Of a stretch of DNA of 64,000 bases, positions 163-56,529 are shown piece by piece. The stretch is from Polyangiaceae bacterium (GTDB taxonomy: Bacteria; Myxococcota_A; Polyangia; Polyangiales; Polyangiaceae). The position numbers and the translations under genes were made by a program. The stretch is taken from assembly GCA_009781005.1 (NCBI GenBank), contig WQYX01000004.1, positions 1 to 64,000 on the forward strand. Reading direction: 5' to 3'. Within the stretch, counting starts at the first letter, position 1; every line of letters starts with the position of its first letter. Below the pieces are notes generated by a model. The model was not told where the DNA came from. It searched no databases and saw only the letters and a program-made list of their open reading frames with translations.

Positions 163-1107
163 GCGATAAAAATCGCGCTTCCTGGTAAACATGCTCTTAA
201 AGTAGTTCAATACGCGTTCAAAAATGAAAGTGGCGTCAAGCAATTTTACAATGAGGGGAGGCTTAAAAATGTAGCGCTATGCGGTACTGATTTCGATAAT
301 TCTGACGGTGCAGCATTTGTTACAGAAGACGGGAAGCTCTCTGTGCAGGGTAGATCGCGGTCCCTTTTTGACGAAGTCAACACCAATCCAAGAAGAGGCT
401 ATATTTACTCTCGAGGTTGGGGTTGCAGCCAATTGACGGCGCCGTTGTGTGAGTTGTCAGGCAGTTATTACGTTCTAGACTCACACGGTTCTTACATTCG
501 AGACGCTGCCGGAAACGTGTCCGACCCAATCGACGAGCTCAAAGTTGTGTCCGACAAGCACGAGCTCACGCGAGATGCGCCTCGTGGTCTCCCAATCATT
601 AATCATAGCAATGGGGAGGATTTTATCCCGGCCTACATTGCGTCACTGAAAACGAATTTACAGGGAGGCGTTGTCGTGTTCGCAAGTGCGTTCATGTCTA
701 CTCCAGTCAGACGGCCTTGTACGTACACTCCCAAATATGATTGCGACAATTGTCTGAGTCGATTCCGCGAGGCAGACATGTCCTTCGGCGAGACCCTCGT
801 CAAGGGAAAGGGAGGGCAGCCGGACAGGAAACGGCGGACGTACTCCATCTCGAGTGAAGCACGTCAGCAGATCCGCAACGATATGTTGAGTGCGAATCCG
901 TCGACTCCGGCAGAATCACTCCCCCCGCTTGAGGATGGGTTTGAGGCGGGAAAGGAGTGGCCTTGCTCCTGGCCGTTGGCGAGATTGTATTATGGTGGTG
1001 AAAGTCCCGAAGGCGACCAACACGTTCGTCAATGTATAAAATTTGCACGTAGTAATACCCACAACCCTGAGCCCCCAAAGGCATCCGCCAAGAAAGGGAG
1101 CAAATAA
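145..1107 (+). CDS. Hypothetical protein, probably truncated by the IS and fused to its 3' end
   Basis: This is a 320-aa protein of no recognised family. Its first six residues (MARHLA) are the tail of the IS5-type transposase in the same frame, so the present ATG probably comes from the insertion sequence and the original N-terminus has been lost. The body has several cysteines (for example a CDNC pair near residue 198) and a lysine-rich C-terminus; no signal peptide or membrane segment is seen. The stop TAA shares its last base with the ATG of the first lipoprotein gene (TAATG), so it lies in the same operon. It could be a decayed effector or an accessory gene of the injection cluster, but that is only inferred from position. 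Confidence 0.5.
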   Translation: MARHLAAIKIALPGKHALKVVQYAFKNESGVKQFYNEGRLKNVALCGTDFDNSDGAAFVTEDGKLSVQGRSRSLFDEVNTNPRRGYIYSRGWGCSQLTAPLCELSGSYYVLDSHGSYIRDAAGNVSDPIDELKVVSDKHELTRDAPRGLPIINHSNGEDFIPAYIASLKTNLQGGVVVFASAFMSTPVRRPCTYTPKYDCDNCLSRFREADMSFGETLVKGKGGQPDRKRRTYSISSEARQQIRNDMLSANPSTPAESLPPLEDGFEAGKEWPCSWPLARLYYGGESPEGDQHVRQCIKFARSNTHNPEPPKASAKKGSK

Positions 1108-2069
1108 TGAACCGCGCATGTCTTCCCATCTCCATGGCTACCGTATTTTTGATGATGGCATGCCATCATGAAGGTGGCTCGCACGCGCCTGTTCCGAGCA
1201 ATGCAATCGCGTCCAAGAACTTGGGAGCAGCGACAACTCCAGCAGATACCCGGTCCGCCTTCTCGGATGGTGGCATTATGTCCAACGACGCGGGGATGGT
1301 GAAGGCTTCGGCGGACGCGCGATCTGCAACGCAGGACAGTGGTGTCAATTCCACGGGTCAACTTCAGGGGGCTTCGGCTCTTGCCACAACAGAGGACGCG
1401 CCTCGGCAAGCTAAGCAGGAACTTGCGGCTTGCGACGCGTCTAAAGCAGTGGATGTCGACCGAAAAGCATTACCAGTGGTTAGGAATTGGCTCGAAACGT
1501 ACCGAGTTGTGATGAGAGGTGAGGGAAAGTCAGAAGTTGCAGGCAATTCTTCGGCAAAGCAAGCGCTGTGCGAACCTTATGGCTCTTGTGATGACCCTAA
1601 CGGAGCCTTCTTTTGGGCTCGATTCCCTTGGGGGACCGATCCGGACTCTCCCTCTTTGAACGGTTTATGGGAACCCAGTATCATTGTGCGGCGTACGGAT
1701 GGCAAGTTTGCTTTGATTGCTAGGCTTGAGAGTACGCAGTCATGGGGCGAATTGTGCGCCGGCGGTGACGGTTACCCCGTCGTCCTCCGATTTGAGCGAG
1801 ATGGACTTATTCATGTGTGGGTTTCCTACACGGCATCCAATGAATATCGCGTTGGTTGCTTCCCCCATCGATCGCAGGCTGACATCTTTGTGGATCCAAC
1901 CACCGGAGATCGAGTCTTCTCCTATTTTCAGGCAGGCAGCGAGAACTTGGTGGACGACGAGTCATTCCCTCCCATCCAATCGGTGAGCATTGTCAACAAT
2001 CAAGCAATCTTGACGGGACCTAAATGCCATGTCGCGATAAAGCTTCCTGCAAAGAATGAGACCAAATGA
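1107..2069 (+). CDS. Lipoprotein paralogue 1 of 4, putative periplasmic immunity protein
   Basis: This 320-aa protein has a type II signal peptide with lipobox LMMAC (Cys19). A Ser/Thr/Asp-Gly linker follows to about residue 100, carrying two copies of a degenerate module (ADTRSAFSDGG, ADARSATQDSG). The folded domain contains VVRNWLETYRVVM, ALCEP, DDPNGAFFW, VRRTDGKFAL, DIFVDPTTGDRVFSY and a C-terminal AILTGPKCHVAIKLP. It is clearly paralogous to the next three genes. The start overlaps the previous stop by one base, and the end overlaps gene 2 by ATGA. Because a PAAR-like amidase follows the array and immunity proteins against wall-degrading effectors are periplasmic, an immunity role is inferred but not shown. 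Confidence 0.75.
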   Translation: MNRACLPISMATVFLMMACHHEGGSHAPVPSNAIASKNLGAATTPADTRSAFSDGGIMSNDAGMVKASADARSATQDSGVNSTGQLQGASALATTEDAPRQAKQELAACDASKAVDVDRKALPVVRNWLETYRVVMRGEGKSEVAGNSSAKQALCEPYGSCDDPNGAFFWARFPWGTDPDSPSLNGLWEPSIIVRRTDGKFALIARLESTQSWGELCAGGDGYPVVLRFERDGLIHVWVSYTASNEYRVGCFPHRSQADIFVDPTTGDRVFSYFQAGSENLVDDESFPPIQSVSIVNNQAILTGPKCHVAIKLPAKNETK

Positions 2070-3082
2070 GCCGCGCATATCTACCTATTGCCATGGTGAC
2101 CGCGTTCGTGATGATGGCATGCCATCATGAAGGTGGCTCGCAAGCACCTATCTCAAGCAATGCAATCACGTCCAAGAACTTGGGAGCAGCGACAACTCCA
2201 GGAGAGACCCGGTCCATCTCCCCGGATGGTGGCATCATGTCCAGTGACGCGGGGATGGTGAAGACTCCGGTAGATGCCCGGTCTGTCTCGTCGGATGGTG
2301 GCGTTGATTCCTTGGGAGTCTCGACTCATGCTACGGCAGATGACGTGATCCGGCAAGCCAAGCAGGAGCTTGCGGCTTGCGGCGCGTACAACAGGGGTTG
2401 CGAAGAGACCTGTCCCGAGATACTGCCTGTTATTCAGGTTGATCGTCAGCATCTGATGACAGTTAGCAATTGGATTGAAACGTACCGAGTTGTGATGGGA
2501 AATGACGCAGAGCCAGAAGTTACAAGCAATTCTGCGGCAAAGAGCGCGCTGTGTGCGGCTAACCCTGATTTCATCTTTTTTCATGAAGGCGCTTGCAATA
2601 ACCCTGGCGGAGCCTTCTTCTGGACTCAATTTCCTGAGATGGGGGAGAGCTACGCTATTCAAGGTATTGAGATACGATCTGACCGATGGGATGCAAACAT
2701 CATAGTGCGGCTTAAGGATGGCACATTTGCTTTGGTTGAAGCATTTCAGCATACATCGTTCTCAACCGTTGGTTGCGGCTATGCCTCCGACAAAGAACAC
2801 GTCACCCCCATCGTCAGATTTGAGCGCGGCAAACTAATTCATGTGCGGGCCCGCTACGGGGCGGTCGACTATCGCGGCTGCAGCGTTAGCTTGTCACAGG
2901 TTGACATTTTTGTGGACCCAACCACCGGTGACCAAGTTTTCTACTATTTCCAGCAATCTCAGGGGGACGATAAACCATTCCCTCCCATCCAGTCGGTGAG
3001 CATAGTCGACAATCAAGCAATCTTGACGGGCCCCCAATGCCACGTCGCGATAAGACTTCCTGCGAAGAACGAGACCAAATGA
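2066..3082 (+). CDS. Lipoprotein paralogue 2 of 4, putative periplasmic immunity protein
   Basis: At 338 aa this is the longest of the four. Lipobox VMMAC puts the lipidated Cys at 19. It is closest to paralogue 1: the first roughly 60 codons are nearly identical at DNA level, which suggests a recent duplication. The linker again has two modules (GETRSISPDGG, VDARSVSSDGG). The folded domain keeps SNWIETYRVVM, NPGGAFFWTQF, IIVRLKDGTFALV, DIFVDPTTGDQVFYY and AILTGPQCHVAIRLP, with an insertion near residues 110-120 and extra residues near 180-205. It overlaps both neighbours by ATGA, implying translational coupling. Confidence 0.75.
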   Translation: MSRAYLPIAMVTAFVMMACHHEGGSQAPISSNAITSKNLGAATTPGETRSISPDGGIMSSDAGMVKTPVDARSVSSDGGVDSLGVSTHATADDVIRQAKQELAACGAYNRGCEETCPEILPVIQVDRQHLMTVSNWIETYRVVMGNDAEPEVTSNSAAKSALCAANPDFIFFHEGACNNPGGAFFWTQFPEMGESYAIQGIEIRSDRWDANIIVRLKDGTFALVEAFQHTSFSTVGCGYASDKEHVTPIVRFERGKLIHVRARYGAVDYRGCSVSLSQVDIFVDPTTGDQVFYYFQQSQGDDKPFPPIQSVSIVDNQAILTGPQCHVAIRLPAKNETK

Positions 3083-3972
3083 ATCGTGCATATCTGCCCA
3101 TCGCCGTTATAACCGCATTTTTGATGGTTTCATGCCATCATGCAGGTGGTGACTCGCGATTGGTGAAGGTTCCGGTAGAAGTCCGGTCTGTCTCGCCGGA
3201 TAGTAGCGTCAATTCTTCGGGAGCCAGGACCCATGCTGAAGTAGATGACGATAATGTGCTTCAGCAAGCCAGGCAGGATCTTTTAGATTGTGGCGCGTAT
3301 GGCGATATTCAGGTCAATCGTCAGGCGCTGTCAGTGGTCCGTGATTGGCTTGATATCTATGAAACCGTGATGGGAGGGGAGACGACTTCAGAAGTTGTAA
3401 GCAATTCTGACGAGGCAAAGAGTGCGCTGTGTGAGCCTGGAGGTTCAGGCTCCGAAGGCTTTTGCGATGACCCTAACGGTGCCTTCTTCTGGTCCAAATC
3501 CTTGACCTACGGATGCCGTGCCAATGTCCTTGTGCGACGCACAGATGGCCAGTTTGTTTTGGTTGATGATCTTGATACGACGTGGGGTCCGAGCGAGGAA
3601 CGCAGCGATGAGCGCAGCGAGGACGCGACGGACGACGTATCGGAAGCAAGGGATACGAGGTGCACCGACGGCACCAAACCCGTCGTCCATAGTTTCGAGC
3701 GTGGTGGGTTTCTTCATGTGCAGGCCAATTACATGGTGGCCCAGGACGTTACGTCTGGCACTTCTAGCTACTCGTCGCAACTTGACGTCTTTGTGGATCC
3801 GACCGCCGGTGACCAACTTTTCTCCTATTTACAGCGAGACATGGTGATAGGCGGCGAAGAACCATTTCCCATCCAATCGATAAATATTGTCGACAATCAT
3901 GCGATCTTGACGGGGCCAGATTGTCACGTCGCGATAAGGCTCCTCCCCGCAAAGAAAGTGACCAAAAAGTGA
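3079..3972 (+). CDS. Lipoprotein paralogue 3 of 4, putative periplasmic immunity protein
   Basis: This 297-aa paralogue has lipobox LMVSC (Cys19) and the shortest linker, with only one degenerate module (VEVRSVSPDSS). It carries a private acidic insertion (roughly EERSDERSEDATDDVSEA) between the VRRTDGQFVLV and HSFERGGFLHV segments. It keeps DDPNGAFFWSK, DVFVDPTAGDQLFSY and AILTGPDCHVAIRLL. The ATG at 3079 was chosen over an upstream in-frame codon because it overlaps the previous stop as ATGA and begins the conserved signal peptide. The divergence looks like diversification of binding surfaces on a constant scaffold; that is an inference. Confidence 0.72.
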   Translation: MNRAYLPIAVITAFLMVSCHHAGGDSRLVKVPVEVRSVSPDSSVNSSGARTHAEVDDDNVLQQARQDLLDCGAYGDIQVNRQALSVVRDWLDIYETVMGGETTSEVVSNSDEAKSALCEPGGSGSEGFCDDPNGAFFWSKSLTYGCRANVLVRRTDGQFVLVDDLDTTWGPSEERSDERSEDATDDVSEARDTRCTDGTKPVVHSFERGGFLHVQANYMVAQDVTSGTSSYSSQLDVFVDPTAGDQLFSYLQRDMVIGGEEPFPIQSINIVDNHAILTGPDCHVAIRLLPAKKVTKK

Positions 3973-4889
3973 GCCGCACCTGTCTACCCATCGCCGTGAT
4001 GACCGCATTCTTGATGATGTCATGTCGTCATGGAGGTGGTGATCCGCGAGTTCCCGTCTCAAGCCATGCAACCACATCCAAGAACGCAGGAGTAGAAAGG
4101 ACTCCGGCGGAGGCTCGGCCTGACACACCGGATGGTGGCGTTGATCCCGAGAGAGCCAGGCAGGATCTTGAAGCTTGCGGTGCTGGTCATATTCAGGTCG
4201 ATAGTGGGACGATGGATATCTGCAGCCTTGCCTCGTCTGGCGACTGCGGCGTGTCAGGCGCAATTGACGTCGATCGTAAGAAGCTGCCGGTAGTCCGCAA
4301 TTGGCTTGAAACGTACCAAGTCGTGATGAGAGCGGGGGATACAGGTTTGCGAGTTGCGAGCAATTCTTCGGCAAAGCGCGTGCTGTGCGAGCCCGATGGC
4401 TCTTGTGATGATCCTAACGGCGCCTTCTTCTGGGCCAAAAGTCCCTTTGGTTTCATTGCTTATGGGCAGGCTGGCCCTGGCTTTGAATGCCATGCCAATG
4501 TCCTTGTGCGACGCACGGATGGAAAATTTGCTTTGGTTGCAGACCTCGAGATGGCGAGGATTGCGAGCAGAGAGTATACGTTGCCCACGGACTCCGGGTG
4601 CGTCGACGGGGCCACCGTCATCAGTTTTGAGCAAGGGGGACTCATTCATGTGCGGGCCCAACACACGTTGTTCCATGACCAGATGATTGGCCGCCTTTCC
4701 CGCTCATCGCAAGTTGACATCTTTGTGGATCCAACCACCGGTGAGCGAGTCTTCTCCTATTTGCAGCAAGGCAGCGAAGATGGAGGAGACGACGACAACA
4801 AGCCGCTTTCCATCCAATCGGTAAGCGTTGTCAACAACCAGGCGATCTTGACGGGACCCAAATGTCATGTCGCGATAAGGCTCCCATGA
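3969..4889 (+). CDS. Lipoprotein paralogue 4 of 4, putative periplasmic immunity protein
   Basis: This 306-aa paralogue starts with GTG at 3969, overlapping the previous stop as GTGA, and continues with signal peptide SRTCLPIAVMTAFLMMSC (Cys19). It has one linker module (AEARPDTPDGG) and a Cys-containing insertion near residues 75-98. It keeps VVRNWLETYQVVM, DDPNGAFFWAK, VRRTDGKFALV, DIFVDPTTGERVFSY and AILTGPKCHVAIRLP. It is the member next to the amidase gene: its stop is 36 bases from that start, and a strong ribosome site (GGAGG and AGGAG) lies in the gap. If the immunity idea holds, this is the first copy to test against the adjacent amidase. Confidence 0.73.
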   Translation: MSRTCLPIAVMTAFLMMSCRHGGGDPRVPVSSHATTSKNAGVERTPAEARPDTPDGGVDPERARQDLEACGAGHIQVDSGTMDICSLASSGDCGVSGAIDVDRKKLPVVRNWLETYQVVMRAGDTGLRVASNSSAKRVLCEPDGSCDDPNGAFFWAKSPFGFIAYGQAGPGFECHANVLVRRTDGKFALVADLEMARIASREYTLPTDSGCVDGATVISFEQGGLIHVRAQHTLFHDQMIGRLSRSSQVDIFVDPTTGERVFSYLQQGSEDGGDDDNKPLSIQSVSVVNNQAILTGPKCHVAIRLP

Positions 4890-9279: not shown

Positions 9280-9777
9280 CTATTGGGCCCGCCGCGGACG
9301 CCGCGGCGCGGGCCTGGTGGCAAGCTGCTTCTTCAATGCCGCGACCTCCTCTTCGAGCTCGCGGTGGACCGTGTCTGCGTGCCTTGACAGCTCAACGTCG
9401 AGTTCCGCGAAGCCTTTGGCGGTCTCGGCGCGATGCGCATCCACCTTGGCTTCGAGCGTGCCGAGCTTCGTCTCAAGCGCCGAAAGACCGTCCTTCGTTG
9501 CCATCTCATTGCGGAGCGCAGCGAGATCATTCTTCGTCTCGTCGCGGGCCGCAGCGAGATCATTCTTCGTTGCCATCTCACTGCGGAGCGCGGCGAGATC
9601 ATTCTTCGTCTCGTCGCGGAGCGCAGCGAGATCATTCTTCGTTGCCATCTCACTGCGGAGCGCGGCGAGATCATTCTTCGTCTCGTCGCGGAGCGCAGCG
9701 AGATCATTCTTCGTTGCCATCTCATCGCGGAGCTGCCGGAGCATCTCCATCACGTCACGAAGCGTCGGATCAGACAT
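9280..9777 (-). CDS. Coiled-coil protein with 24-residue tandem repeats
   Basis: 165 aa, almost entirely alpha-helical in appearance. Residues 19-90 are three near-perfect 24-residue repeats (each EMATKNDLAALR followed by DETKNDLAALRS), and a fourth partial unit follows at 91-102. The rest is heptad-rich (LETKLGTLEAKVDAHRAET, LEEEVAALKKQL), ending in a Pro/Arg-rich tail. No signal peptide is seen. Such proteins are usually oligomeric scaffolds or phage-tail-like coiled coils, but nothing shows a specific role. The gene lies 21 bases upstream of the nucleotidyltransferase pair on the same strand. Confidence 0.7.
   Translation of the reverse strand: MSDPTLRDVMEMLRQLRDEMATKNDLAALRDETKNDLAALRSEMATKNDLAALRDETKNDLAALRSEMATKNDLAAARDETKNDLAALRNEMATKDGLSALETKLGTLEAKVDAHRAETAKGFAELDVELSRHADTVHRELEEEVAALKKQLATRPAPRRPRRAQ
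9508..9723 (-). repeat. 72-bp tandem repeat, three units, inside the coiled-coil gene
   Basis: Three consecutive 72-bp units encode the 24-residue repeats; each unit contains two related 36-base halves. The near identity at DNA level suggests recent unit gain, so copy number is likely to vary between strains. It is not a CRISPR array because there are no unique spacers. Confidence 0.85.
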
Positions 9778-11638: not shown

Positions 11639-12424
11639 ATGAAAAAGAAACGCGACAAGAAAGATAAAGATACAGAATCCCATCGACCGAAGTTCGATGG
11701 ATTCAAGCCGCTCGCCGAATCGAAGGAACTCCAAGACCAATTCCAGACGAAGAAGAAAGAAGACGCGAAGAAGGCCGAAGGAGCGTCGAAGCATGAAGGC
11801 AAGCCCGCTCCCGCGCATCGTTCGAAGGCTCCCGTGCACGCGAGCACGCCGTCCTCGAGTGCCGATGACGAGCTCACCTTCCATCGCATGATGTCCGGGG
11901 TAACGCCGCTCGATCGCGAGGGCGCTTCGCGCATGCCGGTGACGAGCGAGGTGCACGCGCCGGATCCTCGCAGAGCGAAGGAGGCCGCGAGCGAGCGCAT
12001 GCGCCGAGAAACGGCTGAAGCGCTCGAGCACCTCCATGATCTCGTTGACGACGCCGCGAAGTTCGAAATCACCGACGATGGCACGCGCGTCGAAGGGCGT
12101 CGAACGGACGTATCGCCGAGCCTCTTGCGGAGCCTGCGACGCGGACTCGTTCCCATCGACGCACAGCTCGATCTCCACGGTCTCACCGCCGCCGAGGCAC
12201 GTGAACGCCTTGCGGACTTTCTTCGTGAGATGCGTACGCGCGGCGAGCGATGCGTGCTCGTCATCCACGGCAAGGGCGAACGTGCGCCGGGTGCCGGCGT
12301 TCTTCGCGGAGAGATGACCGCATGGCTTTCGCAGGGGCGCGCACGCAAACACGTCGCCGCATTCACAACCGCCGCCGCTGCGGACGGCGGTGAAGGGGCA
12401 ATCTACGTGGCCCTCCGCCGATAA
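11639..12424 (+). CDS. Smr-domain protein
   Basis: 261 aa. The first 75 residues are Lys/Glu-rich and probably disordered (MKKKRDKKDKDTE). The Smr domain occupies about residues 175-261: LDLHGLTAAEARERLADFL, VLVIHGKGERAPGAGVL, GGEGAIYVALRR. The LDLHG and HGKG motifs are those of Smr endonucleases, which act on branched DNA or, in SmrB, on mRNA at collided ribosomes. The stop TAA shares its last base with the beginning of a family A hairpin element. Confidence 0.85.
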   Translation: MKKKRDKKDKDTESHRPKFDGFKPLAESKELQDQFQTKKKEDAKKAEGASKHEGKPAPAHRSKAPVHASTPSSSADDELTFHRMMSGVTPLDREGASRMPVTSEVHAPDPRRAKEAASERMRRETAEALEHLHDLVDDAAKFEITDDGTRVEGRRTDVSPSLLRSLRRGLVPIDAQLDLHGLTAAEARERLADFLREMRTRGERCVLVIHGKGERAPGAGVLRGEMTAWLSQGRARKHVAAFTTAAAADGGEGAIYVALRR

Positions 12425-12592
12425 CCGCTTTCGATTTGCCGCGATCTCATCGTTGGGGCCTGCGCTGCGGTCCTCTGACGGAGCCGTGCGACGGCGTGTG
12501 CGTGTGCTACCAGCACACGCACCAAAGCCACACAAGGCTGTTCCGGTCCGCTGCTCGGCCCCGCCTCGACCTCGCGGCAACTTGAAAGCGGT
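12424..12592 (+). repeat. Family A hairpin element, copy A1
   Basis: It starts ACCGCTTTCGATTTGCC, ends GGCAACTTGAAAGCGGT, and the two ends pair. The inner stem is TTGGGGCC with TCGGCCCC. The apical module carries its own hairpin (GTGTGCTACCAGCACAC), shared with copy A9. Its first base is the last base of the smr stop codon. It lies between two co-directional genes. Confidence 0.85.
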
Positions 12593-19466: not shown

Positions 19467-20791
19467 CACTCATCCCAACACGGAGGTTCGTCGTGCTCGC
19501 GTTCGCCTCGACGGCGATCGCGGTGGCGACGGGTCTTGCGCGTCTCCCCAACGCACCGTGGATGGTTCTCGACGTCGTCGTCATCGCGATAATTTCCATC
19601 GATGCCGTCCTTCTCCGTACGGGTCGCCCGCGCCGCTCGAGGGCCTTCGAGGTGGAGCGCCGCGCGGCGCAAATCTTCTCGGTCGGGCGCGGCAATGCGG
19701 TCACCCTAACGTTGCATAATACAACCACGCGCAGGCTGCGCGGCACGGTGATGGATGATCCGATCGACGATGGGGTGGTGTCGGGTCTGCCGGGCATTTT
19801 CGATTTGTTGCCGGGTGCGAGTGCAGCGCTCAAGTACGAAATCACGCCCACGCGGCGAGGCAAGCGTCAGCTTCGCGCCGTCACGGTGCGCTACGGCTCA
19901 CCGCTCGGCCTGCTCGATCGACAAGAGCGTTTCGAGCGTCCGCAAGACGTCGATGTCTACCCTGACGTGCATGCTGCACGCACCCTCGAGATGCTGCGTC
20001 GCCAAGGTCGCCAAGACGCGCGCATGGGCAGTCTTCGCGTGCGCGGCGGAGACACCGAGTTCGAGCGACTTCGGCCTTACCAAGTCGGCGACGAAATCCG
20101 GCGCATCGATTGGCGCGCCTCGGCGCGGCGCGACGAGCTTGTCGTGCGGCAGTTCCAAGCTGAATCCGATCAAAACGTCGTCTTCGCGATCGACGTCGGT
20201 CGCGGCATGCGCGGCGAGAGCCAAGGCATCACGAGCATCGATCGCGCACTCGGCGCCTCTCTCCTTGCCGCAGATGTTGCTCTTCGCGGCGGCGATCGCG
20301 CGGGTCTCTTGACGTTCGACGACAAACCTCGAAGCTTCCTCCGACCGAGCGGGGGCGCGCTTGGCGGACGCAAGCTGACGCGCGCCGCATATGCGCTCGA
20401 CGCGGGACTTGCAGCGACCGACTACCGTTCTGCGATGCTGTTTTTGAAGACGCACGTAAAAGCGCGCTCGCTCTTCGTCGTCTTCACGAATCTTCTCGAG
20501 CCGCGGAGCGCGCGCGATCTCGCCTCGGCGGTCAAGAGCCTTCTGCCCCGGCACCTGCCGCTCTGCGTGCTCATGCGCGACGAAGAGATCGAACAGCTAG
20601 CGACTGCTCCCGTGCGGGGCGAAGGCGACGTCTTCGTTCGCGCGGCCGCCGCCGAGTCGCTCGTGTGGCGAGACAGCATTGTCCGAAGTCTGCGCAACGC
20701 CGGTGCATTGGTGCTCGACGCGCGTCCATCGGAAGTCACACCGCTGCTCGTGAAGCGCTATCTCGAGATCAAAGCCCGCCGCCTTCTTTAG
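19463..20791 (+). CDS. DUF58 protein, partner of the MoxR ATPase
   Basis: 442 aa. Two hydrophobic segments lie near residues 8-50. A beta-rich region follows, then the DUF58 signature (ELVVRQFQAESDQNVVFAID preceded by EIRRIDWRASARRD) and a VWA-like domain (DVGRGMRG, RAGLLTFDD). It overlaps moxR by ATGA. MoxR/DUF58 pairs are linked to envelope stress or assembly functions. The TAG stop shares its last base with the start of hairpin element A2. Confidence 0.88.
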   Translation: MTLIPTRRFVVLAFASTAIAVATGLARLPNAPWMVLDVVVIAIISIDAVLLRTGRPRRSRAFEVERRAAQIFSVGRGNAVTLTLHNTTTRRLRGTVMDDPIDDGVVSGLPGIFDLLPGASAALKYEITPTRRGKRQLRAVTVRYGSPLGLLDRQERFERPQDVDVYPDVHAARTLEMLRRQGRQDARMGSLRVRGGDTEFERLRPYQVGDEIRRIDWRASARRDELVVRQFQAESDQNVVFAIDVGRGMRGESQGITSIDRALGASLLAADVALRGGDRAGLLTFDDKPRSFLRPSGGALGGRKLTRAAYALDAGLAATDYRSAMLFLKTHVKARSLFVVFTNLLEPRSARDLASAVKSLLPRHLPLCVLMRDEEIEQLATAPVRGEGDVFVRAAAAESLVWRDSIVRSLRNAGALVLDARPSEVTPLLVKRYLEIKARRLL

Positions 20792-21156
20792 CCGCTTTCG
20801 ATTTGGCGCGATCTCATCATCGACGGCGCCTTCGGCGCTGTCGGCCCCGCCTACGGCGGGACCTCCGTGGCCCTTCCTGCGCACGGACGGGGAAGGCTGT
20901 TCCCGGTCCGCTGCTCGGCCCCGCCGGGAACCCCGAGCAGGTTGCGGACCGAGTATTTTGGCCGAGTTGCGAGGTGCGTGTGCAAGTAGCACACGCACAC
21001 GGCGTCGCACCGCGAAGCCAGTAGCGCGAGGCGCTCCGACGAGAGCTGCTGGTGCAGCTTGAGGAGGAGCAACGAAGCGATGCGACGCAAATCGACCAAA
21101 AGACGACGGGAGCAACCTACGAGGGATTCCAAACCTCGCGCCAACTTGAAAGCGGC
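20791..21156 (+). repeat. Family A hairpin element, copy A2 (long form)
   Basis: 366 bp, the longest copy. The ends are GCCGCTTTCGATTTGGCG and CGCCAACTTGAAAGCGGC. The outermost pair is G:C where other copies have A:T, and the variable stem base is G:C where A1 has C:G and A3 A:T. It includes an extra module with the hairpin GTGTGCAAGTAGCACAC, related to the tips of A1 and A9. It fills the whole space between two convergent genes and touches both stop codons. Confidence 0.8.
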
Positions 21157-32794: not shown

Positions 32795-32905
32795 GGCGAG
32801 GAAGCTCCAGTCGCAGTTCGATAGGCGGTAAAGACTGCGCAAGAATAGATATTCCACTTCCTTGCCGCAAATGTGCGGGCGCGGCACACCAAGCGCGGAG
32901 GTATG

Positions 32906-32935
32906 ATGGAGTCATGCATGCTGCACGTAAGCAAA
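32906..32935 (+). pseudogene. Displaced original 5' end of the Uma2 gene
   Basis: These 30 bases from ATG 32906 read MESCMLHVSK. If the 121-bp element A5 is removed, the frame continues exactly into QATYEDLFALGE, giving a typical Uma2 N-terminus (MLHV-K-ATYEDL). With the element present this frame enters the repeat and stops after about 20 codons. This supports insertion of A5 between codons 10 and 11. Confidence 0.6.
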
Positions 32936-33056
32936 ACCGCTTTCGAGTTGACGCGAGGTCAAGGCGGGGCCGAGGAGCGGACCGGAACAGCCTTGTAGGG
33001 CTTTGAGGACCGCACCGCAGGCCCCAACGATGAGATCGCGGCAAATCGAAAGCGGT
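32936..33056 (-). repeat. Family A hairpin element, copy A5, inserted in uma2
   Basis: 121 bp in the opposite orientation to most copies. Ends ACCGCTTTCGAGTTGACGCG and TCGCGGCAAATCGAAAGCGGT; inner stem CGGGGCC with GGCCCC. It interrupts the inferred original uma2 reading frame and provides alternative start codons (TTG 33003, ATG 33030) in the right frame. No clear target-site duplication is seen. Confidence 0.85.
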
Positions 33057-33608
33057 CAAGCGACCTACGAGGATCTGTTCGCGCTTGGTGAAGACGCGCG
33101 CGTCGAGCTCCTGGACGGCAACATCGTGGCGCTTCCGCCGCTGCTTCCGGAGCATGGACTTGCTCAGAGCGCACTTGGTTCGTTCGTGGGGCGTCCGTTT
33201 CACCACGATGACGGTCGCGGCGGTCCGGGTGGTTGGTGGATCCTGCCCGAAGTCGACATCCAACTCACTCCCCACGATGTCGTGCGGCCGGACATGGCCG
33301 GGTGGAAGCGTGAGCGCCTGCCGTCGCCGTGGGGTCAAAGACCCATTCGCGTTGTTCCGGATTGGATTTGCGAAGTGCTTTCGCCTTCGAACGAACGCCA
33401 CGATCGATTCGTGAAGATGAGGCTCTACGCGCACGCTGGTGTGGCATTTTATTGGATCATCAATCCTGCTGAGCGCCTGCTCGAGGCCTTCGAACTGCAC
33501 GAAGGTCGCTGGTTGCAGCTAGGCACGTGGGACGACGAAGCGGTCGCGCGCATCCCACCCTTCGAACTCATCGAGCTCGAGGTCGGACGACTCTTTCCTC
33601 CTCGTTGA
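33030..33608 (+). CDS. Uma2-family endonuclease-like protein, start inside a repeat
   Basis: 192 aa from ATG 33030; TTG 33003 is also possible. The first nine residues (MRSRQIESG) are encoded by hairpin element A5 and the family sequence begins at QATYEDLFALGEDARVELLD. The PD-(D/E)XK-like Uma2 core follows: GGWWILPEVDIQL, VVRPDMAGWKRERLP, VVPDWICEVLSPS, FVKMRLYAHAGVAFYWIINP. Uma2 proteins are abundant in myxobacteria and cyanobacteria; their role is unsettled. Whether the protein is still made depends on the repeat-borne start. The stop abuts element A6. Confidence 0.75.
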   Translation: MRSRQIESGQATYEDLFALGEDARVELLDGNIVALPPLLPEHGLAQSALGSFVGRPFHHDDGRGGPGGWWILPEVDIQLTPHDVVRPDMAGWKRERLPSPWGQRPIRVVPDWICEVLSPSNERHDRFVKMRLYAHAGVAFYWIINPAERLLEAFELHEGRWLQLGTWDDEAVARIPPFELIELEVGRLFPPR

Positions 33609-33761
33609 ACCGCTTTCAAGTTGGCGCGAGGTCGAGGCGGGGCATGGGATGCGACCGGACTCGAACTGCACGGAGTCCAGCCTTGCTGACGGAGGCCTTG
33701 TAGGGCTTTGAGGACCGCACCGCAGGCCCCAACGATGAGATCGCGCCAAATCGAAAGCGGT
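33609..33761 (-). repeat. Family A hairpin element, copy A6
   Basis: 153 bp. Ends ACCGCTTTCAAGTTGGCGCG and CGCGCCAAATCGAAAGCGGT, with the variable stem base as G:C. It fills the space between two convergent genes, from directly after the uma2 stop to the stop codon of the DUF4388 gene, which it overlaps by one base. The tip includes the ACTGCACGGAGTCC module related to A4 and A7. Confidence 0.85.
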
Positions 33762-35290
33762 CAGGGGCGCGCTTCGATCGCGCGTCGGTACCGATCACGT
33801 CGCGGCCCGTCTTTGAGGATCTCGTAGGCTTCTTCGAGAACGACGGCGATCTTGCGTACGTCCTTTTCCAGATCATGCAGTCGAGGCGTGAGGATGCGCG
33901 TAGGCTCGAAGGTCTTGCGGAGTTCGAGGAACGCGCGGCGCACCTCGTAGCTCGTCGCTGTTCGCGCAACGCCGAGCACCGCGAAGTAGTCGCCTTCGTC
34001 GACGAGCTCGAGGCGCGCGCGGATCCGCGCCCGCGCCGCCTCCTCGTCGAGGAACGCGTCAGCCGCTTCGTCGCGCGCGCCGTTGCGGCGCGCACGGTCC
34101 GGCAGGATCTCGATTTCGAGCACTCCAAGGAGCGACAGCGCATGCACGATGGACACGATCTCCGCGTCCGGTGCGCGCGCCAGCAGATCACCGACTGTCC
34201 CGCCGCGGCTACGTGACAGGAGTTCGCGCTCGTGACCGATAATATTGCATTCTGCAAGCAACGCGGCGTGAGGACCGTCCACGATTCGGCTTGCTTCACC
34301 GCCGACTGCCGAAAGCGCTTCCTCCGGCGGTATCGCGCGGCGTACGAGTTCGACAAACACCGCAGGTCCGGTGGATGCGCCGAAGACGCTCGGCTCGGAG
34401 TTGAGGCGCGCTGGCATTTCGGTCTCGAGCTTGGCGGTTCCTCCTGACACACCGAGGACCATGGACGCGATCCACTCCGCGTGTGCGCGCAACACCACCC
34501 AGAGCTGATCTTGCTGAAGCCAGCCGTGCGCGACGAGCGCTGCGCCTGCGTGCCGACCGTATGGAGGAAGTCGCAAGGCGAGCTTGTCGATCTCCTCGCG
34601 AGGAAGCTCCCCTCGAGCCGCGAGAAAGTGCACGATCGACTCGTGTGCGCCTTCAGAGGATGCCGTTACGAGATCACCATCACGAAGGACTACGCGCCGA
34701 ACGACACCCTCGTGTTCGAAAGAGAGCGCGCCGGTTTTGCGGCCTGCCACGGCGTTCGCGAAAAACCGTCGAGCCTCGTTGGCATTTCCAACCGCGATGG
34801 ACGAGGCTTCGCGCGCGACGCTTTGGTCCTGCGACGGCGCAGATGCCGAGGCGTGCATGGACTCCCCGCGCACGCTCGATACCCCCGACGTGCTCACCGA
34901 CGCAGATCCACCGGATCCCGTCGTTGGGTACCGCGTTCCTCCGGAAGTCGTGATCTTCGCGTGTCCGTAACCGTCGCGGTCCGGCGATGGTTCGCTTCTG
35001 CGGCCATCATGCAAATCGTCGTCGTCGTCATCGAGCGGTTCATCGAGCGACGCGAGGACGTCTGCAGGAAGTACCGCCTCGATCTCCTCTTGCGGCGTTG
35101 GCGCGGCTTCGGCAAAAGGTGCAATTTGTATACGCTTTTCCGCCTCCGCAAGGAGCTGCAGCAGTTCGTCGCTCATGACACCCATCGACGCGAGCCATTG
35201 CGGCGGATCAGCGAGACCAGAGGGCGCGCTCGGCCGATCACTGCTGGCGGGACCGGTTGAGCGCCCCGAACCTTGTGACTCTTTCGCCAT
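33761..35290 (-). CDS. DUF4388 protein with a C-terminal J-like domain lacking HPD
   Basis: 509 aa from ATG 35290. Residues 1-165 are low in complexity, with an acidic run (DEPLDDDDDDLHDG). A DUF4388/PATAN-like domain lies near 170-290 (GRKTGALSFEHEGVVRRVVL, RDGDLVTASSEGAHESIVHF). Residues about 435-505 resemble a J domain (DYFAVLGVARTATSYEVRRA, EEAYEILKDGPRRDRYRRA), but the HPD motif needed to stimulate DnaK is replaced by TFEPTRI. It is probably a protein-interaction or signalling module of the type found in myxobacteria. The gene converges on uma2 across element A6. Confidence 0.75.
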   Translation of the reverse strand: MAKESQGSGRSTGPASSDRPSAPSGLADPPQWLASMGVMSDELLQLLAEAEKRIQIAPFAEAAPTPQEEIEAVLPADVLASLDEPLDDDDDDLHDGRRSEPSPDRDGYGHAKITTSGGTRYPTTGSGGSASVSTSGVSSVRGESMHASASAPSQDQSVAREASSIAVGNANEARRFFANAVAGRKTGALSFEHEGVVRRVVLRDGDLVTASSEGAHESIVHFLAARGELPREEIDKLALRLPPYGRHAGAALVAHGWLQQDQLWVVLRAHAEWIASMVLGVSGGTAKLETEMPARLNSEPSVFGASTGPAVFVELVRRAIPPEEALSAVGGEASRIVDGPHAALLAECNIIGHERELLSRSRGGTVGDLLARAPDAEIVSIVHALSLLGVLEIEILPDRARRNGARDEAADAFLDEEAARARIRARLELVDEGDYFAVLGVARTATSYEVRRAFLELRKTFEPTRILTPRLHDLEKDVRKIAVVLEEAYEILKDGPRRDRYRRAIEARP

Positions 35291-35308
35291 CCCCAAACCG
35301 CCCGTCTC

Positions 35309-42754: not shown

Positions 42755-43656
42755 TTCGAGTCGTCTTCGTTGGTCTTCCTATCGCGGCGCTCTTGCTCGC
42801 GAAGGATGGTCACACCGTCGTGTGGGCTGGAGTCTGCCGGCGCGAAGCGGCAGGCACGCGAAGACTCGTGCGGGTGCTTGGTCGAGATCGCGTCATGATG
42901 ATGCCCGATCTGTCGCGACCGGAGCTTCATGCGAGGGTCAAAAGCCTCGCGCCAGATCTCATCGTGAGCTGGTTCTGGACGAAGAAGATGCCGGCATCGT
43001 TCCGCGCGTGTGCGAAGCATGGCGCCATCGGCGTGCACCCATCTCTTTTGCCGCGCCATCGCGGCAGAGACCCATTTTTCTGGGCGATCGATCGCGGCGA
43101 CGAGATGACCGGTGTGAGCGCGCACATCCTTGACGACGAGTACGACACGGGCGCGGTGCTCGGGCAGCGTGCACTCTACATCGATCCGTCGTGGAACGCG
43201 TGGACGCTCGCGAAGAAACTCGATCGACCCTCGCTCGCGCTCTTGCGGGAGATCGTGGCGAGCTACGCGCGCGGTGAGCCGCCGCCGCCGACTGTGCAGA
43301 ACGACGCACTCGCGACCGAGGCACCGCGGCCGAGCGACGACGATCTCGAGCTGCGATGGGATGCGCCCTCAGCAGACATCGCGCGTCGCGTGCGCGCAGC
43401 GAGTCCATGGCCGGGTGCGTTCACGGCCATCGGTGATGAGATCCTCGTCCTTCTGCGAGTGCGAGAGACGCGCAACTTTCCGCGCGTGCTCACGCCCGGG
43501 CAAGCCTTCGTGCGTAAAGACGGCATCCCGATCGTGCGCACGGGCGACGGCGCCATCGAGCTTCTCGGCGCGCGTTTCGATGATGACGAAGATGCCCCCG
43601 AGCTCGATGCCTCGGCGATCGCCGAGATCGTGCATGCCGCCCGCGAGATCTCTTGA
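42691..43656 (+). CDS. Formyltransferase-like protein with a repeat-derived N-terminus
   Basis: 321 aa from TTG 42691; no ATG precedes the conserved core RVVFVGLPIAALLLAKDGH, so the first roughly 22 residues (through FAQQAGKHAF) come from element B2. The formyltransferase fold is seen in APDLIVSWFWTKKMP, GVHPSLLPRHRGRDPFFWAI and YDTGAVLGQ. The catalytic Asn of the family (N-x-H-x-S-L-L-P) is Gly here (AIGVHPSLLP), while His and Asp are kept. It is therefore not safely a methionyl-tRNA formyltransferase; it may modify an amino sugar or be inactive. Confidence 0.7.
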   Translation: MSTEQSAQPTHRFAQQAGKHAFRVVFVGLPIAALLLAKDGHTVVWAGVCRREAAGTRRLVRVLGRDRVMMMPDLSRPELHARVKSLAPDLIVSWFWTKKMPASFRACAKHGAIGVHPSLLPRHRGRDPFFWAIDRGDEMTGVSAHILDDEYDTGAVLGQRALYIDPSWNAWTLAKKLDRPSLALLREIVASYARGEPPPPTVQNDALATEAPRPSDDDLELRWDAPSADIARRVRAASPWPGAFTAIGDEILVLLRVRETRNFPRVLTPGQAFVRKDGIPIVRTGDGAIELLGARFDDDEDAPELDASAIAEIVHAAREIS

Positions 43657-43841
43657 CCGCTTTCGATTTGCCGCGATCTCGTCGTTGGGGCCTGCGGTGC
43701 GGTCCTCAAAGCCTTCAAGGCTGTTCACTTCGCTTCGCTCCGTCGCTCTCACTGTACTCTGTCCACTTCGTGGACTCCGTACAGTTCGAGTCCGGTCGCA
43801 TCCCATGCCCCGCCTCGACCTCGCGTCAACTTGAAAGCGGT
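43656..43841 (+). repeat. Family A hairpin element, copy A7
   Basis: 186 bp. Ends ACCGCTTTCGATTTGCCGC and GCGTCAACTTGAAAGCGGT. The tip module is the same as in A4, but with TGTAC/GTACA replacing TGCAC/GTGCA around GTCCACTTCGTGGAC. It begins on the last base of the formyltransferase-like stop TGA and ends five bases before the convergent glycerophosphodiesterase stop. Confidence 0.87.
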
Positions 43842-54182: not shown

Positions 54183-55256
54183 ATGCGTTACGTGTCGTCA
54201 CCTCTATTCAAGTTCGTCGTCATCGGAACATTCGCAGGGCTGTTTGCGAGCAATCTTGGTTGCAGAAAGCTGGTTAGCAAAGCCTTACAACAAATTGACG
54301 GGGGGACGTCCACGACCGGTACGTCGGAAGCGCAGTCGAATGATCCGGACGAACGGCTTCGTGAGAAGATCGAGCCGTACATCGAGTGCCTCAATTCGCT
54401 CTCGTCAGAGATCCGTGGGATGGAGAAATCCTATTTATCGAATATCCCGGGAACCGGACCAACAGGCAAAGAGCGATCGGCCTACATGCCAGCGCTCTCC
54501 AAAGGTGACGCCACGAAGTGCTCCACGAACCTCGCGAAGGCAAAGACGATGCAGCCTTCCCTCCCTGCACTCGAGCAGGCGGGCGAGGCCTTCGCGAAAG
54601 CTGCAAACCAAATCGATCCGCTCGCTGCGCAACTTCATGAATACTTCGACAAAAAGAACTATCTTGATGACCATTGGGCCAAAGCCAAAGAATTGCATCC
54701 GCAGATCATGGCAGCGTTCAAGGACTTTAATCGAGCCAACGACGATTTACACACTGCGCTCGATGGCATTACCAAGCCTCTCTCTCAACGCGAACTCGCC
54801 AGGATTGAAAAAGAGGACGGCAAGAAATTTCGCTATCACCGAAAGCACGTGCTCAATACCGCGCGTGATCTCGTTGAAGTAAGCAATCCGGATAGTCAGG
54901 AAATCGACTTCAACGCGTACAGCGCGGCGATGACGGAATTCGAGAAGGCGCTCGAAGATCTCACGACGTACGGCGGCAGTCACAAATCCGACCTTAGCGA
55001 CGAGAAGAAGCGCGTGAACGTTCTTGCCGAACACAATTACGATTCCTTTGTCCGCGCGGCAAATGACTATCAGAAGGCACAGAAGACTTTCTGGCGTTGC
55101 CTTCGCGATGCGCCCGCGAAAGCAAAGCTCGCAAATGGCAGGGTCGACGTGGACAAGGCTGCGTGTCCTAAAGATGTCATCAACGGTCGCGCAGACCAGG
55201 CAGCAATGAAGAAGTATAACGAATTTATCAACACTTCGAACCGCAGCCAATTTTAG
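54183..55256 (+). CDS. DUF3829 lipoprotein, copy 1 of 2
   Basis: 357 aa from ATG 54183 after a GAGGAGAAACGGG ribosome site. Signal peptide FKFVVIGTFAGLFASNLGC, with the lipidated Cys near residue 27. The rest is helical: EKIEPYIECLNSLSSEIRGM, AKTMQPSLPALEQAGEAFAK, YHRKHVLNTARDLVEVSNPD, MTEFEKALEDLTTYGGSHKS, fitting the DUF3829 (YiiG-like) family. It is a close paralogue of the next gene. GC looks lower than in the flanks, as in the island at the left edge. Confidence 0.75.
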   Translation: MRYVSSPLFKFVVIGTFAGLFASNLGCRKLVSKALQQIDGGTSTTGTSEAQSNDPDERLREKIEPYIECLNSLSSEIRGMEKSYLSNIPGTGPTGKERSAYMPALSKGDATKCSTNLAKAKTMQPSLPALEQAGEAFAKAANQIDPLAAQLHEYFDKKNYLDDHWAKAKELHPQIMAAFKDFNRANDDLHTALDGITKPLSQRELARIEKEDGKKFRYHRKHVLNTARDLVEVSNPDSQEIDFNAYSAAMTEFEKALEDLTTYGGSHKSDLSDEKKRVNVLAEHNYDSFVRAANDYQKAQKTFWRCLRDAPAKAKLANGRVDVDKAACPKDVINGRADQAAMKKYNEFINTSNRSQF

Positions 55257-55267
55257 GGCCCCAGCAG

Positions 55268-55285
55268 CCACGGCGTACGCCGTGG
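55268..55285. repeat. 18-bp perfect palindrome between the two DUF3829 genes
   Basis: CCACGGCGTACGCCGTGG is its own complement. It lies 11 bases after the first stop. Without a T-run it is not a clear terminator; it could be a small hairpin repeat. Confidence 0.5.
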
Positions 55286-55392
55286 AGGCGCGGGCGGGGA
55301 AGGCCCGTGACTCCATCCGTGTTTTTATTTCTTTTGGTACGCGTGCGAAGGAGTTATTGTCGCATGCCGTCAACGCACGAGGAGAAAACGGG

Positions 55393-56529
55393 ATGGGTAA
55401 CGTCGTGTCGTCGCCGCTGTTCAAGTTCGTTGTTCTCGGAACATTCGTGGGGCTGTTTGCGAGCAGCCTCGGTTGCAAAAAGCTAGTCGACAAAGTCCTA
55501 CATGTTGACGGAGGGGCAACGCCAACCAGTTCGCCGGAAGCGAAATCTAGAGAGTCGTCCACAACCAGTGCACCGGAGGCGAAGTCGAAGGATCCGGACG
55601 AACCCAATTCACCGGAGGCGAAGTCGTCTACGGTCGGTTTGATGGACCCGGACGAACAGCTCGCCAAGAAGATCGAGCCGTACATCGAGTGCCTCAACTC
55701 GCTTTCTTCAAGCACCCGCGACGCGGAGAAGAGTTATCTGCATTACATCCCGAAGACTGGACCAACGGGCAGAGAAAGCCCCTCCATCTACAAGCTTCCC
55801 AAAGACGCGGCCGCGAAGTGCTCCACGAGTCTTGCGGAGGCGAAGACGATGCAGCCGTCCGCTCCGGCGCTGGAGCAGGCGGGCGAGGCCTTTGCGAAGG
55901 CCACAACCCAGCTCGATCCACTCCTGATGCAACTTGAACAGTACTTCGAAAATAAGGATTACCTTGATGACCATTGGGCCAAAGGCAAACAATTGCATCC
56001 GCAGGTCATGGCGGCATTCAAGGACTTTAATCCAGCCGACGACGATTTGCGCAATGTGCTCGATGGTATAACCAAGCCTCTCTCTCAGCGTGAGCTCGCA
56101 AAGATTGAAAGAGAGGAAGGTAAGAAAATTCGCTATCATCGAAAGCACGTGCTCAATACCGCGCGCGAGCTCATTGAAGTAAGCAATCCGGACGGTGGGG
56201 AAGTCAACTCCACCCTGTACAATGCGGCAATGACGGAATTCGACAAGGCGCTCGAAGACCTCACGGCGTACGGTAGCAGCCATAAGTCCGACATTAAAGA
56301 CGAAATCCGTTATGATTCTTTTGTCAAAGCGGCGAACGACTATCGCAAGGTACAGAAGGATCTCTGGCGTTGCCTCCGTAATGCGCCCGCAAAGGTGAAG
56401 CTTTCAAATGACAAGATCAACGTGAAAAAGCTCTCGTGCCCTGACGACAATATTATTGATCGTGTTGCGGACAGGCCGATCGAGAAATACAACGATTTCA
56501 TCCGTTGGCCGAATACCCAAGAATTTTAG
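55393..56529 (+). CDS. DUF3829 lipoprotein, copy 2 of 2
   Basis: 378 aa from ATG 55393, after GAGGAGAAAACGGG. The signal is FKFVVLGTFVGLFASSLGC. It differs from copy 1 mainly in a longer Ser/Pro/Glu linker (with PEAKS repeated three times) and a deletion near residue 300. Conserved: KKIEPYIECLNSLSSSTRDA, DDHWAKGKQLHPQVMAAFKD, GITKPLSQRELAKIEREEGK, YHRKHVLNTARELIEVSNPD. The leader before the start resembles that of copy 1, so the duplication included the upstream region. Confidence 0.75.
   Translation: MGNVVSSPLFKFVVLGTFVGLFASSLGCKKLVDKVLHVDGGATPTSSPEAKSRESSTTSAPEAKSKDPDEPNSPEAKSSTVGLMDPDEQLAKKIEPYIECLNSLSSSTRDAEKSYLHYIPKTGPTGRESPSIYKLPKDAAAKCSTSLAEAKTMQPSAPALEQAGEAFAKATTQLDPLLMQLEQYFENKDYLDDHWAKGKQLHPQVMAAFKDFNPADDDLRNVLDGITKPLSQRELAKIEREEGKKIRYHRKHVLNTARELIEVSNPDGGEVNSTLYNAAMTEFDKALEDLTAYGSSHKSDIKDEIRYDSFVKAANDYRKVQKDLWRCLRNAPAKVKLSNDKINVKKLSCPDDNIIDRVADRPIEKYNDFIRWPNTQEF

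Follow-up and report, generated by a model that had tools for sequence, protein, structure and literature searches.

In a draft genome of a Polyangiaceae bacterium, a copy (A5) of a mobile palindromic repeat has inserted after codon 7 of a uma2 gene, adding 125 bp and breaking the reading frame, and the conserved Uma2 body now most likely starts at ATG 33030, a codon located within the repeat itself; we assign this reading a probability of roughly 0.55. The locus lies in a stretch of 64,000 nucleotides, referred to here as the window, and the features that are relevant for the following analysis are compiled in Table 1.

The ORF located 3' of A5 matched the Uma2 family (PF05685, E 3.6e-26, profile positions 4-165 of 172), the members of which we take to be putative nucleases. 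The gene shares with this family the complete domain, the conserved residues and the C-terminus, but differs in that its N-terminus is split by A5. All of the 41 columns that are near-invariant among 35 homologues were unchanged (41/41), showing that the body is intact. In members of the family, the ATYEDL block is preceded by 6-7 residues, the typical N-terminus being M-x-P/A-A-R/K-K-L-ATYEDL, and in most homologues a TAnnnT box is located 29-37 bases 5' of the codon aligned to the Q with which the body begins here. A TAnnnT box ~10-18 bases 5' of the start codon is common to Uma2-family genes of the order (e.g., L023, L131, L011), a position that suggests very short leaders or leaderless mRNAs. 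A close element-free orthologue of the gene was not found, whereby the best relatives were 66% identical and not syntenic, and the same-genus genome G009 has the neighbour gene without a uma2 gene beside it.

Table 1. Features of the uma2 locus in window coordinates, and genes that carry the element in frame
Feature	Position or locus	Strand	Basis or remark
GGAGG, Shine-Dalgarno-like, 5' of the old uma2 start	32897..32901	+	sequence; anti-SD duplex -10.8 kcal/mol for ATG 32914
TATGAT, -10-like box of uma2	32902..32907	+	equivalent TAnnnT box in most homologues
Old uma2 start ATG 32914 with 30-codon leader ORF MHAARKQNRFRVDARSRRGRGADRNSLVGL	32914..33006	+	stop TGA 33004-33006
CAAA, left member of imperfect 4-base repeat	32932..32935	+	counted within the 125-bp insert
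Palindromic element A5, 121 bp	32936..33056	+	sequence, fold, copy number
uma2 as now readable from ATG 33030 in A5	33030..33608	+	192 aa; frame open from 32952
CAAG, right member of imperfect 4-base repeat	33057..33060	+	Q codon with which the conserved body opens
Second element A6, 153 bp, directly 3' of the uma2 stop	33609..33761	+	shares its final base with the minus-strand gene's TGA (third position)
Convergent gene	33761..35296	-	orthologues in G009, G006 and G010 end one residue later
In-frame hosts by Pfam: MtnA, Eco57I methylase, LigD, UvrD-like helicase, PMT_2, Rsm22-like, calcineurin-like phosphoesterase	L244, L182, L076, L254, L303, L165, L079		

A5 is a near-palindrome of 121 bp with the ends ACCGCTTTCGAGTTGACGCG...CGCGGCAAATCGAAAGCGGT, and its DNA fold is far more stable than that of shuffled sequence (z = -7.9). 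In the window's genome (G000; 4.77 Mb, 199 contigs, draft), a search for the element termini yielded 281 forward and 281 reverse matches, compared to 0 + 0 for a control pattern, and these ~281 palindromic repeats are not due to chance. The original prediction of a repeat element at exactly 32936-33056 held. Many copies with ~93% identity are also present in the same-genus Polyangiaceae MAG G009 (isolate Emb289P4bin44, presumably of termite-gut origin as we read the isolate name), and at a threshold of E 1e-8 none of the remaining 377 among the 379 genomes searched in the phylum gave a match. At 4.8 and 4.2 Mb, G000 and G009 are smaller than all other genomes compared in the genus, which measure 6.6-11.9 Mb (comparison within G001-G011). 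A length of 121 bp was found for 77, and one of 122 bp for 26, of the 147 unique copies. Changes at the terminal base pair are matched between the two arms (14 copies, p 3e-11), which indicates that the hairpin is maintained. Longer variants of 153-366 bp (window 20791-21156; L050, L055, L064, L154) have the same ends and extra inner sequence, in which no transposase ORF was noticed. Several contigs of G000 (C2, C5, C8, C16 and others) start or end inside the element, thus the repeat breaks the assembly. A5 itself differs from the consensus of the window's genome at three of its 121 positions, one of them in the variable loop. In the window's genome, 31 of 44 copies have the T of the in-frame ATG, and the G009 consensus reads AAG at this place; the ATG is common, yet no conserved part of the element.

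The sequence of the gene before the insertion was deduced by scoring every join with an ATG or GTG located 6 or 7 codons 5' of the Q codon against a profile of 39 homologue N-termini. The best join of all tested was the removal of 125 bp (sequence kept to 32931 and resumed at 33057), which yielded ATG CAT GCT GCA CGT AAG CAA GCG ACC TAC (MHAARKQATY; MHAARKQATYEDL) from ATG 32914 and scored 22.0 bits, falling within the range of the 39 native N-termini (14.1-31.4 bits). After this removal, the TATGAT box begins 30 bases 5' of the Q codon, which is one of its two commonest positions. The likeliest join therefore predicts an empty site of the sequence ATGCATGCTGCACGTAAG-CAAG-CGACC (MHAARK-QATYEDL). 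The original prediction had placed the insertion to the base at exactly 121 bp, in a gene that began at ATG 32906 as MESCMLHVSK-QATYEDL and matched the usual Uma2 beginning. Removing 121 bp does open a frame from ATG 32906, which is correct as arithmetic but does not yield a plausible ancestral gene: the joined N-terminus (MLHVSK-QATYEDL) scored only 5.9 bits, lower than all 39 homologues, and ATG 32906 overlaps the TATGAT box at 32902-32907. Because of this score, compared to 22.0 bits for the 125-bp join, and because of the overlap, we rejected both the start and the joined peptide of the 121-bp version, which is hardly tenable. There is good support for the more general claim that a mobile repeat inserted into the N-terminal part of uma2, namely the repeat family and the family-like N-terminus that remains after removal.

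The 125-bp insert exceeds the element by four bases, and the same was found at a second gene for which a filled and an empty site could be compared. The MtnA gene of G009 contains a 122-bp copy in frame, whereas MtnA of G000 (85% identical) is without a copy; the filled site reads ...LPLL-[ARFQ...RQIESG]-LEGTLRKP... and the empty one ...LPLL-QATPHKP.... The insert comprises 42 codons, i.e., 126 bp, made up of the 122-bp element and four bases (CTAG on the left, CTGG on the right). As judged from the sequences, this pair follows the same +4-base rule as the insert in uma2, from which the 121-bp version departs. The element is flanked by imperfect 4-base repeats at both sites, CAAA/CAAG in uma2 and CTAG/CTGG in MtnA; thus the absence of a target-site duplication, proposed earlier as a check on the insertion, is an unsafe assumption. 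A general target-site duplication of 2-9 bp was not found, and over 149 copies the two flanks match no better than expected. The four extra bases per insert may stem from duplication of the target or may belong to the element itself.

According to this rule, copies of 122 + 4 and 119 + 4 bp keep the frame, whereas 121 + 4 bp, as in uma2, does not. Since the 125-bp insert breaks the frame, the old start ATG 32914 (MHAARKQ...) now runs into TGA 33004-33006 inside A5, and the Uma2 frame, being open from 32952, overlaps the resulting leader ORF. The Uma2 body thus lies in another frame than the old start, and its translation requires initiation at an internal codon, ribosomal slippage by -1 where the two frames overlap, or else an assembly that is wrong by one base. 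Conceptual translation confirmed the original prediction that the Uma2 body can be read in phase from ATG 33030, its N-terminus then being MRSRQIESG-QATYEDL. This codon sits in the hairpin arm of A5, and the predicted ribosome-site duplex is weak (-2.6 kcal/mol) compared to the good one of ATG 32914 (-10.8 kcal/mol). It follows the leader stop at a distance of 23 bases, a spacing from which we infer that re-initiation might be suited. TTG 33003 is a possible alternative internal start, while ATG 33030 is the best in-frame start that A5 contains for the intact body. Supply of a start codon by A5 would be the likeliest route to continued translation of the Uma2 body, although both this translation and its beginning at ATG 33030 are deduced from the DNA sequence.

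The course of events might accordingly be pictured as follows. A mobile, hairpin-forming repeat of mostly 119-122 bp reached hundreds of copies in two genomes of the same genus, and the copy A5 entered uma2 after codon 7, adding the 121-bp element and four bases (CAAA/CAAG). Unlike the inserts of in-frame family members, this insert is not a multiple of three, and the frame was lost. Without a ribosomal slip, the Uma2 body could only be made from a start within A5, most likely ATG 33030, which would be used by re-initiation or by weak internal initiation on a transcript from the untouched uma2 promoter. The product of the element start, MRSRQIESG-QATYEDL, would carry the N-terminal peptide MRSRQIESGQATYEDLF..., with or without the first M.

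It could also be that the recent insertion simply knocked out uma2 by breaking its frame, whereby the in-frame ATG would be coincidental and the body would be beginning to decay. The shift caused by 121 + 4 bp and the weakness of the internal ribosome site point in this direction, and the ATG is carried by most copies anyway (31/44), one of three frames fitting by chance. The intact body with all of its near-invariant residues argues against a knock-out, but this is weak evidence: A5 is close to the consensus, which marks a recent insertion, so that decay has had hardly any time to set in and the body should be intact whether or not selection acts on it. Overall, we regard a knock-out as possible but rather doubtful. 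For the same reasons, namely the weak ribosome site and a near-consensus, hence young copy, the proposed exaptation of the repeat as part of the gene is a possible outcome rather than a demonstrated one. Furthermore, the product might be a full fusion MHAARKQ-[~40 element residues]-QATYEDL, which would require either that one loop base is missing from the assembly (true length 122 bp) or that a -1 slip occurs in 32952-33003. The entry and exit frames at uma2 are those of in-frame copies elsewhere (cf. the phosphoesterase copy NRFQVDARSRRGRGADRNSLSMALRTAPQAPTMRSRQIESG), only one base apart, the element is hypervariable in its loop, the draft assembly is fragmented, with contigs that end in the element, and a 122-bp copy lies in frame at MtnA. 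However, 121 bp with the loop length of A5 is the commonest form (77/147 copies), and inspection of the overlap by eye revealed no classical slippery heptamer, so that we consider a full fusion quite improbable. The preferred reading remains a frame-breaking insertion with a new start at ATG 33030.

Copies that keep the frame are found in a number of unrelated genes. In no fewer than seven cases, a copy interrupts a gene recognised by Pfam, or is joined to one, without loss of the frame (Table 1), with Pfam domains beside or across the insert; LuxE-like, ImuB-like and RimI-like genes, named from reading of their sequences and without a Pfam hit, are likely further hosts. The in-frame copies encode ~41 residues, which read DRFQVDARSRR...RSRQIESG or, from the other strand, DRFRFDAISS...SRQLESG. 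Frame-keeping lengths were enriched among copies inside ORFs (13/39 vs. 8/108, p 2e-4; also 11/11), an enrichment that is partly circular, since frame-broken host genes would go unrecognised.

Outside of genes, the element is frequently located at gene ends, and ~45% of the copies abut a stop codon. A convergent gene lies between -30 and +40 bases from the right end in 62 copies; for these, gene calls from a simple codon-usage script revealed that 38 of 62 share exactly one base with the stop codon, whereby the gene gives TG or TA and the element gives the A that completes TGA or TAA; a further 8 of 62 abut the stop. In total, 113 copies in G000 and G009 bear on this pattern, e.g., those at 12424-12592, 20791-21156, 33609-33761 and 43656-43841 of the window. 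The third of these is A6, and the orthologues of the two genes around it end at about the same residue. A special association of the element with uma2 genes (~4 of 24 with an element within 40 bp of the stop) was considered and dropped, because it is a post hoc observation for which the general stop-codon pattern already accounts.

By analogy, the family appears to resemble, in form and insertion behaviour, the Rickettsia palindromic elements (RPE; Ogata et al. 2000, 2002), which according to the summaries in PMC10969869 and PMC2229807 fuse in frame to genes. Both are ~100-150 bp long, with a long stem-loop, inverted ends and high copy number, and both insert in frame into unrelated protein genes, adding a recurrent peptide. 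The analysis revealed an interspersed palindrome of this size with inverted ends, including compensating changes at the terminal pair, as well as in-frame insertion into unrelated genes, documented by open frames, seven Pfam proteins and the MtnA empty site. In contrast to the RPE, the element occurs in another phylum, has 61% G+C, and most of its copies are 121 bp long, lie outside genes and have their right end at stop codons. GTAG REPs are palindromes located mostly 3' of genes that often give the stop codon, some of which lie inside repair genes, and they are associated with RAYT transposases (PMC3733652). The element shares with them the placement at gene ends, the supply of stop codons, intragenic copies and a tetranucleotide tag at one end. 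However, its tag in the left flank is YTAG and rarely GTAG, with G at the first place in only 9 of 102 copies, it is several times longer, and it is without a linked Y1 transposase in G000 and G009. Specifically, G009 contains no Y1 (RAYT) transposase; G000 has a single one, of the IS200-like type, and element ends were not seen next to it. Mobilisation by RAYT is thus unsupported, as no linked Y1 transposase is present in either genome. Small non-autonomous MITEs such as the 107-bp Correia element and ERIC also have inverted ends, and some are fused in frame to host genes (PMC2229807), but the element differs in showing no general target-site duplication and in that no parent insertion sequence was found in a search that covered the Y1 transposase family. 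Integron attC sites were considered as well, since the elements abut gene ends; core sites were not evident by eye.

The element represents a high-copy, high-GC family of coding palindromes in the Polyangiaceae, together with a second genome that has its own insertions. To our knowledge, palindromes that code in frame have been described chiefly in Rickettsia and Wolbachia. Because the second genome has its own insertions, paired filled and empty sites are available, by which the tolerance of in-frame inserts, the placement at stop codons and the supply of starts become directly testable. It is conceivable, albeit unlikely at present, that this one family rewrites gene boundaries genome-wide by adding in-frame internal peptides, by completing stop codons and occasionally, as in uma2, by providing a new start through re-initiation after a leader stop in its own hairpin. 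The window also contains unrelated repeats at 1106-4885, 9476-9733 and 54342-56447, which comprise a ~950-bp unit in about four diverged copies, a tandem repeat of 72 bp and a stretch that is duplicated at a spacing of ~1300 bp.
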